This document shows, one piece after another, positions 1,341 to 18,055 of a DNA stretch of 32,272 nt. Below the pieces are notes generated by a model, which was given only the letters and a program-made list of their open reading frames with translations, did not search any database and had not been told where the DNA came from. Numbering within the stretch: position 1 is the first letter of the stretch; each line of letters begins with the position of its first letter. The stretch comes from Selenomonadaceae bacterium (GTDB taxonomy: Bacteria > Bacillota > Negativicutes > Selenomonadales > Selenomonadaceae), in the NCBI GenBank assembly GCA_017476425.1, contig JAFUZV010000160.1, forward strand, positions 1 through 32,272. Direction: 5' to 3'. The translations under genes were made by a program, and so were the position numbers.

Positions 1341-2329
1341 TCGATCAGTACGGACGGAAAATCGAATACGTTAGAATATCTTTGACGGATCGCTGCAATT
1401 TACGTTGTCAATATTGTATGCCGGAATGTGGAATTGAAAAAATTTCTCACGATGATATTTTATCGCTTGAAGAAGTGTTGCACGTTGTCAAGCTGCTTGC
1501 TGATTGTGGTATTCGTAAAGTGAGATTAACCGGCGGTGAGCCGTTGCTTCGTCGTGGTATTGTCGATTTGATTCGTGAAATAAAGGCGATTGAAAATATC
1601 GAACAAATTTTTTTGACAACTAACGGAGTACTTTTATCAAATATGGCTGATGATTTAATTAATGCCGGTGTTAATGGTTTTAATATCAGCCTTGACACTC
1701 TCAACGAAAAAACTTTTGAAAAGATCACTCGACGAAATTTATTTAAAAAAGTTTTTGAGAGTATTCAAAAGCTCATTGATAGCGGCGTTGAGATCAAATT
1801 AAATTGTGTTCCGATCGCCGGAGTTAATGAAGAAGATATTTTGAAGATCGTGGAGCTTGCAAGAGATAATTTTATTAAAGTTCGATTTATTGAGTTAATG
1901 CCGATCGGCTGTGCTGTTGATTTTAAAGGAATACCGATCGGCGAAGTTAAATCAAAAATCGAAAGTATTTACGGAAAATTAATTTCGCATTCCGCATTCA
2001 TAATTCCGAATTATCAAGGTCCTGCGAAATATTTTACATTGAATGGTTTCAAAGGTCAGATCGGCTTTATCGATGCGATCGATCATAAATTTTGTAATTC
2101 TTGCAATCGAATCAGATTAACGGCGAATGGTTTTTTAAAATTGTGTCTTAATTCAAACGCCGGACTTGATATTAAATCGCTGTTGAGATCGAACGCTGAC
2201 GATCAAAAAATATTCGAAGCGATCAAGCAGGCAATTTATAACAAACCGAAAGAACATCATTTTAATGTAGAATGTAGAATGCAGAATGCAAAATTAAATT
2301 TTAATGCAATGTATCAGATAGGCGGTTAA
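1337..2329 (+). CDS. moaA: GTP 3',8-cyclase MoaA (radical SAM)
   Basis: MoaA is the radical S-adenosylmethionine enzyme that turns GTP into 3',8-cyclo-GTP, the first step of molybdopterin synthesis. The radical-SAM cluster cysteines are C20, C24 and C27 in CNLRCQYC. The second, substrate-binding cluster is given by C253, C256 and C270. The protein ends in the family's typical Gly-Gly tail (MYQIGG), which is needed for activity. Two short stretches are odd: residues 217-225 and 311-319 are encoded by 7-bp tandem repeats of a family also found in the spacers of this window. The second lies between the conserved EHHFN and the Gly-Gly tail. A second copy of the last codons, also reading MYQIGG-stop, sits about 250 bp downstream at 2564-2584. 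The start overlaps moeA by 4 bp. Confidence 0.95.
   Translation: MIDQYGRKIEYVRISLTDRCNLRCQYCMPECGIEKISHDDILSLEEVLHVVKLLADCGIRKVRLTGGEPLLRRGIVDLIREIKAIENIEQIFLTTNGVLLSNMADDLINAGVNGFNISLDTLNEKTFEKITRRNLFKKVFESIQKLIDSGVEIKLNCVPIAGVNEEDILKIVELARDNFIKVRFIELMPIGCAVDFKGIPIGEVKSKIESIYGKLISHSAFIIPNYQGPAKYFTLNGFKGQIGFIDAIDHKFCNSCNRIRLTANGFLKLCLNSNAGLDIKSLLRSNADDQKIFEAIKQAIYNKPKEHHFNVECRMQNAKLNFNAMYQIGG
1985..2012 (+). repeat. Four 7-bp repeat units inside moaA
   Basis: The units TCGCATT, CCGCATT, CATAATT and CCGAATT run in perfect 7-bp register. They are the reverse-complement form of the GAATNNN heptamers found at gene ends elsewhere in the window. They encode MoaA residues 217-225, a surface-like segment before the conserved GPAKYF. 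Confidence 0.6.
2268..2295 (+). repeat. Four 7-bp repeat units at the 3' end of moaA
   Basis: The units TAGAATG, TAGAATG, CAGAATG and CAAAATT follow one another without gaps. They are translated as part of MoaA and run into the left copy of the direct repeat at 2281-2325. Confidence 0.75.
2281..2325 (+). repeat. Left copy of an imperfect direct repeat (true end of moaA)
   Basis: This 45-bp stretch matches 2536-2581 at about 38 of 46 aligned positions, including the shared core AAAATTAAATTT and ATGTATCA. It codes for the MoaA tail MYQIGG, followed by TAA. Confidence 0.75.
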
Positions 2330-2381
2330 TAATATAAAAATTTTAATTTAGAATTAATAACGGACGCGGGCGATGAGCGCA

Positions 2382-2508
2382 GTCACGACGCTAGTTTCGT
2401 GACAAGCGGAGTTGATTAAGCCGCTGAATTAAGGCGCGCAGCAGTTTTGCTTACTTTTCTAAAAGTAAGTGACTTCTTTGCAACTTTCTTGGTCAGTCAA
2501 GAAAGTTG
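2382..2508 (+). other. GC-richer intergenic element with four successive hairpins
   Basis: The 257-bp gap between moaA and the next gene has no convincing reading frame but is rich in inverted repeats. GTCACGA (2382-2388) pairs with TCGTGAC (2397-2403). AGCGG (2405-2409) pairs with CCGCT (2421-2425). CTTACTTTT (2450-2458) pairs with AAAAGTAAG (2461-2469). CAACTTTCTTG (2481-2491) pairs perfectly over 11 bp with CAAGAAAGTTG (2498-2508). The start of the element (2361-2440) is visibly richer in G and C than its surroundings. It could be a non-autonomous repeat element, a structured RNA or an attenuator; none can be chosen from one copy. No long U-run follows any of the stems, so a simple terminator is unlikely. 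Confidence 0.7.
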
Positions 2509-2535
2509 AACAAAAAAAGCAGAATGATTCAGAAT

Positions 2536-2581
2536 GAAGAATAAAAAATTAAATTTCAATGTTAATGTATCAAATTGGAGG
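2536..2581 (+). repeat. Right copy of the imperfect direct repeat (second moaA tail)
   Basis: This is the partner of 2281-2325. It and the next bases read ATG TAT CAA ATT GGA GGA TAA, again MYQIGG-stop, with synonymous changes. Here the GGAGG at its end serves as the ribosome binding site of the next gene, five bases before the ATG at 2587. Confidence 0.75.
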
Positions 2582-2586
2582 ATAAG

Positions 2587-3516
2587 ATGAGCAAGATCAA
2601 AGCAATTTGTATTAGTGAAAAGCGTGGAACAAGAAAATTTATGATCGAAGAGGCAAATTTTATAACTGAATTTGGAATTGAACACGATGCACACGCCGGT
2701 GATTGGCATAGACAAGTAAGTTTTTTGGGATTGAATGAGATTGAAGAATTTCGCAATCGTGGCGGCAATGTGAATTTTGGTGACTTCGGTGAAAATATTG
2801 TTGCTGATGAAATTACTTTTAAAAATTTGCCGATCGGAACTCGTTTAAAAAGCGGTGAAGTTTATTTTGAGATCACTCAGATCGGTAAAGAATGCCATTC
2901 ACATTGTCAAATTTACCATCAAGTCGGCGATTGTATTATGCCTCGTGAAGGTGTCTTTGCAAGAGTTTTGCACGGCGGAAAGATCAAAGTTGGTGACGAA
3001 TTAGAAATCACAACTGAAAATATTCCGCTTGACGCGGCGATCATTATTTCAAGTGATAAAGGCTTTACCGGTGAACGTGAAGACTTAAGCGGCAAAAAGT
3101 GTGAAGAAATTTTAACGGCGGCGAATTATAAAATTATTGACAAAAAAATTCTGCCTGACGAAAAAGATCAACTCGTCAAGCAGATGAAATATTATTGTGA
3201 TTTAGGCGTTGGTTTAATCGTAACAACCGGCGGAACAGGTTTTTCAGTTCGTGATGTTACGCCTGAGGCAACGATCGAAGTTTGTGATCGAATGGCTCCG
3301 GGAATTGCTGAAGCAATGAGATCAAAATCTTTAGAAATTACTCCTCGTGCAATGTTAAGCCGTGCAACTGCAGGAATTTGTAAACGATCGTTGATCGTCA
3401 ACTTGCCCGGCAGTGTTAAGGCTGTTGATGAATGTTTAAATTTTGTTTTGCCGACACTCAAGCACGGAATTGAAATTTTGCGTGGAGAAAGTGGTGAATG
3501 TGGTAACAAAAATTAA
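2587..3516 (+). CDS. MOSC domain - MogA/MoaB fusion protein
   Basis: This molybdenum cofactor protein is made of two parts. Residues 1 to about 143 form a MOSC domain (EHDAHAGDWHRQVSFLG, then GKECHSHCQIYHQVGDC and GVFARVLHGG), a fold that binds or sulfurates the cofactor. From about residue 148 to the end is a MogA/MoaB domain with TTGGTGFSVRDVTPEAT and NLPGS, which adenylylates molybdopterin so that MoeA can insert molybdenum. The fusion joins consecutive steps of the pathway and sits in the moeA-moaA operon. I chose the ATG at 2587 because GGAGG lies five bases upstream; an in-frame TTG at 2575 would bury that site. The protein has 309 residues. The domain calls are secure; the exact role of the MOSC part is not. 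Confidence 0.9.
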   Translation: MSKIKAICISEKRGTRKFMIEEANFITEFGIEHDAHAGDWHRQVSFLGLNEIEEFRNRGGNVNFGDFGENIVADEITFKNLPIGTRLKSGEVYFEITQIGKECHSHCQIYHQVGDCIMPREGVFARVLHGGKIKVGDELEITTENIPLDAAIIISSDKGFTGEREDLSGKKCEEILTAANYKIIDKKILPDEKDQLVKQMKYYCDLGVGLIVTTGGTGFSVRDVTPEATIEVCDRMAPGIAEAMRSKSLEITPRAMLSRATAGICKRSLIVNLPGSVKAVDECLNFVLPTLKHGIEILRGESGECGNKN

Positions 3517-9014: not shown

Positions 9015-9101
9015 AATGCGGAATTAAGAATGCGGAATGCGGAATTGTTTCAATTAATAATTCTTAATTAATTCCTAATTCCGAATTCCTCATTCCGAAT
9101 T
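9015..9101 (+). repeat. Inverted pair of 7-bp repeat arrays between the HPr gene and dapA
   Basis: The left array is AATGCGG, AATTAAG, AATGCGG, AATGCGG, AATTGTT (9015-9049). The right array is AATTCCT, AATTCCG, AATTCCT, CATTCCG, AATT (9070-9101), the same family in the opposite orientation. The two halves could fold into an imperfect long hairpin. They fill nearly the whole 105-bp gap, leaving GAGGTGG as the dapA ribosome binding site. Confidence 0.75.
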
Positions 9102-11955: not shown

Positions 11956-13574
11956 GAACTCAAGATATAGGCGTTAATGATCTGCCTTGGAAAATTGAAT
12001 ATAAGCCGGAACGTTGTACAATGTGTGGAAGTTGTGTTGCAAGTTGTTCATTTAAAGCGATCAAAGTTGCTGTTGAAGCACAATCGATCACTGTTAGTGA
12101 AGAATCTCAACCGAAACCTATTCATAAACACATTGCAAGACCAGTTATCAAACAAGTTGCAAGTTTAACTGATTTTTGTCGCGGTTGTGGAATGTGTGAA
12201 AAAGTTTGTCCGAACAATGCAATTAAACCGGTTAGAAATCAAGATACAAGAAAATCACTTTTGAGTAGAGATAACGGACCGATCAAACGTGGCGGCAGAA
12301 CAAATTTAAATGCACAACGAACGCTTGATAATATAATTGTTGGCAGAATTTCACAAATGACTGATCCGTCACTTGATTCAGTTCGTCATACTTTCGATAT
12401 TCGATCGCCGTTCGGTAGAGTACTTTCATCAAAAGAATTGCCGTTTGAAGTTGTCGACGGAAAATTAATTCAAAAATCTAAAACTCCGCCGGTCAGATGG
12501 ATTTATCCGCTTGTATTTTCTGATATGTCGATCGGTGCACTTTCAACAAGAGCTTGGGAAGCAGTTGCATTAGCCGTCGGTTATCTCAATGAAAAATGTA
12601 ACATTCCGATCAGAATGAGCAGCGGTGAAGGCGGTATGCCTGCTAAACTTTTGCAGTCTGATTATCTGAAATATTTTATCATTCAGATCGCGTCAGGTCA
12701 TTTCGGCTGGAATAGAATTATTAAATCAATGCCGCTTATGAAAACTGATCCTGCAGGAATTTTGATCAAAATCGGTCAAGGTGCTAAACCTGGTGACGGC
12801 GGACTTCTTCAAAGTGCTAAAGTTGCTGAACATATTCAAGCAATTCGCGGCGTTCCTAAAGCAACTTTATCATCACCGCCTAATCATCAAGGACTTTATT
12901 CTATTGAAGAATCTGTACAGAAAATGCACTTGTCAATGAATGCGGCTTTTGGTTTTAGAGTTCCTGTTGCGATCAAATGTGCTGCGTCCTCAACAAGCGT
13001 TTCAGTTTATAATAATTTATTGCGTGATCCTTATAAAATTTGTGGAGGATTTTTTATTGACGGTATTCAAGGCGGTACAGGTGCGGCGAATGAAATTTCA
13101 CTTGATCATACAGGTCACCCGGTTGTAAGTAAAATTCGTGATTGTTATCTTGCGGCAGTCAAACAAGGTGCACAAGGTCAAATTCCGCTTTACGGCGGCG
13201 GAGGTATAGGAATGACAGGAAATGCTGCGGCTGATGCTTTCAAAATGATCTGTCTCGGTGCTAATGGTGTTTTCTGTGGAAAAATTTTAATTCAACTTCT
13301 CGGCTGTATCGGAAATGAACAAGGTCGCTGTAATGCTTGCAATACCGGAAATTGTCCGACTGGTATTTGTACTCAAAATCCAAGACTTGTTAAGAGACTT
13401 GATATTGATCGTGGTGCACAAAAGATCGTTGATTATGTACTTGCATTTGACGCTGAAATGAGAAAATTAATGGCTCCGATCGGAAATTCTTCATTGCCTG
13501 TTGGTAGAAGTGATGCTTTGATCTCAACTGATCATTCAATCGCTGAAAAGTTAGGTATTCAATATGTCTGTTAG
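11943..13574 (+). CDS. gltB: Glutamate synthase, FMN-binding synthase subunit with N-terminal ferredoxin domain
   Basis: This subunit joins ammonia to 2-oxoglutarate and reduces the imine to glutamate. Residues 20-95 carry two 4Fe-4S motifs (C25, C28, C31, C35 and C79, C82, C85, C89). From about residue 150 comes the FMN-binding barrel with MSSGEGGMPAKL, IGQGAKPGDGG and YGGGGIGMTGNAAADA. The cysteines in CNACNTGNCPTGIC probably ligate a further iron-sulfur cluster. The 543-residue size fits the archaeal-type form, which lacks the amidotransferase and GXGXG domains found in the long GltB of many bacteria; those are encoded by separate genes here. AAGGTG precedes the ATG, inside the end of the upstream gene. 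Confidence 0.93.
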   Translation: MEAVRTQDIGVNDLPWKIEYKPERCTMCGSCVASCSFKAIKVAVEAQSITVSEESQPKPIHKHIARPVIKQVASLTDFCRGCGMCEKVCPNNAIKPVRNQDTRKSLLSRDNGPIKRGGRTNLNAQRTLDNIIVGRISQMTDPSLDSVRHTFDIRSPFGRVLSSKELPFEVVDGKLIQKSKTPPVRWIYPLVFSDMSIGALSTRAWEAVALAVGYLNEKCNIPIRMSSGEGGMPAKLLQSDYLKYFIIQIASGHFGWNRIIKSMPLMKTDPAGILIKIGQGAKPGDGGLLQSAKVAEHIQAIRGVPKATLSSPPNHQGLYSIEESVQKMHLSMNAAFGFRVPVAIKCAASSTSVSVYNNLLRDPYKICGGFFIDGIQGGTGAANEISLDHTGHPVVSKIRDCYLAAVKQGAQGQIPLYGGGGIGMTGNAAADAFKMICLGANGVFCGKILIQLLGCIGNEQGRCNACNTGNCPTGICTQNPRLVKRLDIDRGAQKIVDYVLAFDAEMRKLMAPIGNSSLPVGRSDALISTDHSIAEKLGIQYVC

Positions 13575-14124
13575 TGAAGAAATTATTATTAGAAATGTCG
13601 ATCTTAATGACGCAAAAGAATTGTTGAGAATTTACGCTTATTACGTCAAGACGACGGCGATCAGTTTTGAATATGATGTGCCGACGATTGAAGAATTTAC
13701 TGAACGAATCAAAAAAATTTCTCTGAAATATCCTTATATCGTTGCTGAAATGAAGAATGCTACAATTTTTGGCGATGAAGTGATCGGCTATGCTTATGCA
13801 AATACATTTATTGATCGTGCGGCTTATGATCATTGTGTAGAGTTGACGATTTATCTCAATCATAAATTTCAAGGTCAAGGTATCGGCAAAAAACTTTATC
13901 AGTATTTGCAAAATGAATTGAAGGCAATGAAAATTTTAAATTTGTATGCTTGCGTTGCTTATCCACTGGTTGAAGATGAATTTTTGACGATGAACAGCGT
14001 AAATTTTCATAAACATTTAGGATTTGAAATTTGTGGACATTTTAAAAAATGTGGTTACAAGTTTGATCGCTGGTATGATATGGTTTATATGGAAAAGATT
14101 ATTAATTCAGAATTAAGAATGTAG
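13564..14124 (+). CDS. GNAT N-acetyltransferase, phosphinothricin-acetyltransferase-like
   Basis: The 186-residue protein has the Pat-type GNAT layout: IRNVDLNDAKELLRIY at the start, then YAYANTFIDRAAYDHCVE, the acetyl-CoA loop QGQGIGKKLY, and FHKHLGFEICGHFKKCGYKF near the end. Relatives acetylate phosphinothricin, methionine sulfoximine or related amino-acid analogues. Placement in a glutamate synthase locus makes a glutamate- or glutamine-like substrate attractive, but that is inference; methionine sulfoximine and phosphinothricin are inhibitors of glutamine synthetase. The ATG overlaps the gltB stop by 11 bp. The last residues NSELRM and the TAG stop lie in a 7-bp repeat array, so the repeat has set the protein's end. 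Confidence 0.85.
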   Translation: MSVSEEIIIRNVDLNDAKELLRIYAYYVKTTAISFEYDVPTIEEFTERIKKISLKYPYIVAEMKNATIFGDEVIGYAYANTFIDRAAYDHCVELTIYLNHKFQGQGIGKKLYQYLQNELKAMKILNLYACVAYPLVEDEFLTMNSVNFHKHLGFEICGHFKKCGYKFDRWYDMVYMEKIINSELRM

Positions 14125-14135
14125 AATGCAGAATT
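14108..14135 (+). repeat. Four 7-bp repeat units over the GNAT stop codon
   Basis: CAGAATT, AAGAATG, TAGAATG and CAGAATT run in register. The TAG of the third unit is the stop codon of the upstream acetyltransferase. Confidence 0.8.
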
Positions 14136-18022: not shown

Positions 18023-18055
18023 AAATTCTACATTCTGCATTCTACATTCTGAATT
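18023..18055 (+). repeat. 7-bp tandem repeats, ATTCTNN type
   Basis: AAATTCT, ACATTCT, GCATTCT, ACATTCT and GAATT follow each other. This is the reverse-complement orientation of the GAATNNN family. Confidence 0.8.

Follow-up and report, generated by a model that had tools for sequence, protein, structure and literature searches.

An apparently duplicated moaA tail on either side of a dispersed hairpin repeat in a Selenomonadaceae bacterium

Insertions at gene ends and dispersed short repeats

Tyrosine-integrase ICEs often insert at the 3' ends of protein genes, including guaA, rplL, rpsI, rpmG and lysS (PMC4701971). Their direct repeats span 12-54 bp, and in rplL and guaA exactly the 3' end of the gene is contained in these repeats (PMC4701971). 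Repeats of heptamer units have been described in Beggiatoaceae, cyanobacteria and Bacteroidetes (PMC4679880). REP/REPIN and MITE-type repeats are dispersed paired hairpins with compensatory changes (PMC3116915, PMC10969869), and Rickettsia palindromic elements are dispersed repeats that are tolerated in frame in protein genes (PMC10969869). In homology-facilitated illegitimate recombination, one joint is homologous and the other is illegitimate, and a displaced 3' remnant may be left behind (PMC3240628, PMC5361080).

The stretch of DNA analysed here, called the window, consists of 32,272 nucleotides of contig JAFUZV010000160.1 from the draft assembly GCA_017476425.1 (237 contigs, 96.7% complete, 5.84% estimated contamination). 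Its source is a rumen-type Selenomonadaceae bacterium, and the comparison set contains one genome per species. At the end of moaA, direct repeats that include the 3' end of the gene flank a noncoding insert of ~190 bp, and the gene itself is intact, as at ICE and IME target genes (PMC4701971). Unlike those elements, the locus encodes no site-specific integrase, and the other copies of its noncoding repeat are not found at like sites with the same att repeat. The first-pass annotation regarded such an arrangement at a protein gene as new. That wording is too strong, since ICEs produce it at guaA, rplL and rpsI (PMC4701971); what is unusual in comparison with ICEs is only the small size of the insert and its lack of an integrase.

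Two tails at the moaA-mog junction

The junction lies in a molybdenum-cofactor operon, and all of the features described in this section are on the forward strand. The upstream gene moeA (165-1340; Pfam MoeA_N, MoCF_biosynth and MoeA_C) is followed by moaA (1337-2329), whose reading frame and Pfam matches (Radical_SAM, Mob_synth_C) indicate an intact GTP 3',8-cyclase of 330 aa. Next comes mog (2587-3516), which by Pfam encodes a fusion of MOSC and MogA-type (MoCF_biosynth) domains. The moaA gene ends in a functional left tail, ATGTATCAGATAGGCGGTTAA (2309-2329), that encodes MYQIGG and a stop. It is preceded by a heptamer repeat, (GAATGYA)n with an AT spacer (2270-2305), that is in frame in moaA. 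Beyond the insert, which carries a structured hairpin repeat or 'core' (2358-2521), a right heptamer-type repeat and AT spacer (2525-2561) lead into a second tail, ATGTATCAAATTGGAGGATAA (2565-2585). A single G separates the stop codon of this tail from the mog ATG at 2587. Thus the insert separates two copies of a unit composed of heptamer repeat and tail, and both copies begin with heptamer-type sequence.

The two units form imperfect direct repeats, pairing 2276-2306 with 2531-2561 (87%) and 2308-2329 with 2564-2585 (82%). Aligned to each other by the Smith-Waterman method, the flanks of the core score 58, whereas 500 dinucleotide-shuffled controls average 19.3 and never exceed 30. This bears out the first-pass description of two imperfect direct repeats that each encode MYQIGG and a stop with synonymous codons. 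The duplication that it placed at 2281-2325 and 2536-2581 stands, but the first part of that repeat is a genome-wide heptamer repeat on which it did not remark. The tail part by itself scores 24 (shuffle mean 14.6, maximum 25), which is only moderately beyond chance. Between a shared ATG TAT and a shared TAA, the left tail reads CAG ATA GGC GGT and the right tail reads CAA ATT GGA GGA. All four differences fall at synonymous third positions (p=0.005 under random placement in 18 coding bases). Only the left copy is in the moaA frame; the right copy is offset by one base, has stops upstream and lies outside the MoaA reading. The moaA-specific part of the repeat amounts to ~22-27 nt plus the junction that is shared with the heptamer repeat. 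Duplication is much the likeliest reading of the tail similarity, because the right copy adjoins the mog start, the tail is kept in relatives, and its junction with the heptamer repeat is shared by both copies.

The check that had been proposed, a search for an uninterrupted junction with one tail, succeeded in 15 congeneric genomes (G076, G032, G036, G017, G014, G011, G012, G025, G024, G033, G003, G031, G020, G081 and G088). At all 15 junctions the tail is of the type M(Y/N)(Q/R)(I/V)GG, and mog starts 1-3 nt past the stop. The records of two of these genomes, G076 (L061) and G032 (L062), describe uncultured Selenomonadaceae sampled from red deer and roe deer. None of the congeners examined has an inserted element at the moaA-mog junction. 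When positions 2200-2700 of the window were compared as DNA with 66 congeners, eight matching junctions aligned onward from query positions 352-366, which correspond to 2551-2565. Congener DNA homology thus begins at about the right tail, which marks this tail as the ancestral copy at its native place. The earlier proposal that the right copy occupies the position where the moaA end belongs is upheld by the same observation.

The nearest empty site belongs to a different species, G076, with identities to the window of 67% for MoaA and 86% for Mog. The corresponding values between G076 and G032 are 64% and 82%, and by this measure the divergence of MoaA relative to that of Mog is nothing unusual. 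In the gene trees for moeA, for moaA and for mog alike, the window falls beside G076, and this agreement disfavours an exchange of moaA for a distant homologue. The trees also bear on a partial replacement, in which incoming moaA DNA would have brought its own tail and left the native tail stranded. Effector genes displaced through homology-facilitated illegitimate recombination are known to show the layout that this would produce, their original 3' part having been shifted downstream (PMC5361080). A donor from the window's own species or a closely related one would fit the gene trees too, but with the same sister for all three genes and a MoaA that is not unusually divergent, partial replacement appears very improbable.

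The hairpin repeat and the heptamer family

The core consists of a GC-rich conserved part followed by two covarying hairpins, the second at ~2474-2515. In this genome, a covariance model built from three copies recovers those three at 177.6, 167.0 and 159.6 bits and adds a fourth at 104.4 bits. Thus further copies of the interval, for which the first-pass annotation had advised a search, do exist. Weak and diverged copies occur in seven congeners, for example four in G076, and by DNA comparison across 300 genomes of the class the core is confined to this genus. In the 3'-side hairpins of 12 copies, 91% of cells pair compared to 39-51% in slid controls, and 34 of 49 pairs show two-sided change; these figures lean somewhat towards the model, to which the alignment had been fitted. 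Folded as a single strand, the interval does only modestly better than shuffled sequences (z -2.3). No open reading frame of at least 40 aa lies wholly within 2330-2530, and no terminator or promoter signal in the interval rises above chance. Rfam yields nothing at the gathering threshold for the interval, only chance-level matches with E up to 5.

The three other copies in this genome are intergenic. One (L105), closely followed by a heptamer repeat, lies next to the 3' end of an open reading frame that reads as threonyl-tRNA synthetase. Another (L101) is beside a gene reading like rplQ, and the third (L109) is between two open reading frames; neither has an adjacent heptamer repeat. The gene names near L105 and L101 are read from sequence alone. 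None of the three has a moaA tail or flanking direct repeats (best scores 19-21 versus 58 at moaA), and three core copies in G076 are also without comparable flanking repeats. On this comparison the duplication is a property of the moaA event and not of the element, because the other copies in this genome have no flanking direct repeat. The first-pass suggestion that the element itself carries in or creates a replacement tail was not sustained, given that L101, L105 and L109 show neither tail nor duplication.

These observations also bear on the idea that the core is a mobile miniature element with long (~60 bp) target-site duplications, for which moaA would be one target. Such an element could account for four copies in the genome with diverged relatives in congeners, for a structure conserved by covariation and for the direct repeat that flanks the moaA copy. 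The idea is quite improbable when set against the six copies, three in this genome and three in G076, without comparable flanking repeats. A repeat search reported no inverted repeat spanning the core and no terminal inverted repeats, and the combination expected of a MITE, terminal inverted repeats with target-site duplications at several copies, is absent. A RAYT (PF01797) is likewise missing from this 96.7% complete genome, in a search whose controls were positive. Assignment as a REPIN was rejected by the RAYT criterion (PMC3116915), as no such Y1 transposase was detected in the genome. Like REP-type structured repeats, the core is dispersed, and its copies retain their hairpins through compensatory change; it differs from REP/REPIN and MITE-type repeats (PMC3116915, PMC10969869) in having four copies in its genome, no RAYT found and no terminal inverted repeats.

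The layout of the locus could alternatively be that of an ICE, IME or prophage remnant. The moaA 3' end would then have served as attB, one tail each would represent attL and attR, and all but ~190 bp of the interior would have been lost. A replacement tail attached to the gene, a native tail at the distal end and synonymous differences between them are what is seen at guaA, rplL and rpsI (PMC4701971). Even so, a remnant of this kind seems distinctly unlikely. The interval contains no integrase or other gene and is almost entirely a noncoding repeat that is present elsewhere without the tail. The core is absent from pattern searches of phage, plasmid and IMG/VR sequences, and the moaA-tail pattern has one match in IMG/VR. 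Furthermore, the repeated stretch takes in a dispersed heptamer repeat, and the junction is free of any element in every congener examined.

The heptamer units are GAATGYA and GAATTAA, frequently arranged as inverted pairs. The pattern GAATGNNGAATGNNGAATG has 84 exact matches in this genome and none with a reversed-pattern control, and it is found few times or not at all in most congeners, except G032 (53). Short arrays of the 7-bp unit are thus far above chance genome-wide, as expected for a dispersed repeat family. The similarity upstream of the two tails is in part repeat-family similarity, as far as these matches indicate, because 2270-2305 belongs to this family. In MoaA the heptamers amount to ~7 extra residues (VECRMQN) relative to related proteins, located in a length-variable linker before the tail.

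With its many short arrays of 7-bp units, the family resembles cyanobacterial STRR sequences. Like the TAACTGA repeats of Beggiatoaceae (PMC4679880), it is found in a great many such arrays, for the most part between genes and close to ribosome sites, with some overlap into genes; unlike them, it has GAATGYA/GAATTAA units, frequent inverted pairs and several occurrences in frame in proteins. Toleration within reading frames is shared with Rickettsia palindromic elements (PMC10969869), which measure ~150 bp, whereas the heptamers here occupy ~20-30 nt in variable loops.

Heptamer runs are found at many other positions. A second run in moaA, in reverse orientation (1988-2006), lies in a loop that is 2-3 residues longer than in relatives. 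The moaA 3' end of G012 (L040) has an independent in-frame (GAATTNG)n run in the same MoaA linker. Among unrelated proteins of this genome, in-frame heptamers occur in a HemZ-like protein (L029), a radical SAM protein (L025), a CobB-like protein (L028) and at L020, L007, L016 and L024. They encode peptides such as ECRMQNAEF in one orientation and NSAFYILHS-like sequences in the other, and in the HemZ-like and CobB-like proteins they occupy loops of variable length among congeners. The last residues and stop of the open reading frame at 13564-14124, which may encode an acetyltransferase, are supplied by a heptamer repeat (14110-14135). More heptamer repeats lie outside long open reading frames, at 9021-9095 (an inverted pair) and 18024-18049. 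A second heptamer family, AGGGCTG, accompanies the GAATG family in the flanks of L012, L014 and L015. One 489-aa open reading frame region with a heptamer insert is present on two contigs (L006 on G000:C213 and L007 on G000:C40), which could reflect duplication, the assembly or a mixture of strains.

Heptamer arrays are expected to be prone to slippage, and both copies of the moaA repeat begin with heptamers. Unequal crossing over within the heptamers, or slippage there, might have duplicated the tail in tandem, and the hairpin repeat would then have come in between the copies as a separate event. This order is unlikely, as it needs two independent events, the second of which must hit the duplication junction.

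Division of a double function

In congeners, sequence comparison shows that the same ~20 bases encode the C-terminal Gly-Gly of MoaA and sit at the predicted mog ribosome site. The double glycine that ends MoaA/MOCS1A reportedly matters for function (PMC3602415). Of 13 congeners, 10 have GGA as the penultimate Gly codon, compared to 74 of 278 other Gly codons in the same genes, a bias that is indicative only, since the species are related and the statistic is uncorrected for this (Fisher p=3e-4). An excess of GGA is consistent with a Shine-Dalgarno constraint on this codon. Any such constraint would not be absolute, for the nearest relative G076, as well as G032 and G081, has GGTGGT instead of GGAGG.

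In the window, the right copy retains GGAGG (2577-2581) five bases ahead of the mog ATG, and the left copy has GGCGGT. Apparently, the right copy now acts only as the predicted ribosome-binding site of mog and the left copy ends MoaA, such that the two copies seem to have split the jobs of the ancestral tail. This division would explain the state of the locus: both tails may have been kept, and their codons may differ, because a double function was divided between them.

The best explanation, which we favour by a narrow balance of probability, is a one-off duplication of heptamer repeat and tail that accompanied entry of the hairpin repeat, after which the two jobs of the tail were divided. 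The hairpin repeat would have entered the moaA 3' end by a single recombination or template-switch event. One joint would pair through the heptamer repeat, and the other would be illegitimate, formed without homology immediately downstream of the moaA stop codon. The segment bounded by the two joints, heptamer repeat and tail, would thereby become duplicated. A single event could suffice, because a heptamer joint together with a non-homologous joint past the stop duplicates what lies between them. The left copy would then be held to its amino acids, permitting synonymous change only, while the right copy would keep the GGAGG that mog needs.

The heptamer repeat is probably the anchor of this duplication. 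The one precedent for such anchoring is L105, in which a hairpin copy is followed by a heptamer repeat; L101 and L109 have none. The combination of one homologous and one illegitimate joint is that of homology-facilitated illegitimate recombination (PMC3240628, PMC5361080), and we infer both this manner of joining and the order of events at moaA from the layout alone.

Overall, the locus looks like a one-off local rearrangement in the midst of numerous 7-base repeats, and not like a new class of mobile element. A broader proposal, that a mobile hairpin repeat repeatedly enters gene 3' ends beside heptamers, duplicating tails and splitting the functions of stop and ribosome site, strikes us as highly improbable. 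If true, it would give this lineage a general way to tolerate insertions in tightly packed operons. As a single case, the moaA-mog junction would be a natural example of a stretch with C-terminus and ribosome-site roles that was duplicated, each copy keeping one role. It illustrates how a compact operon can take an insertion, and how short repeats scattered through a genome may guide events of this kind.
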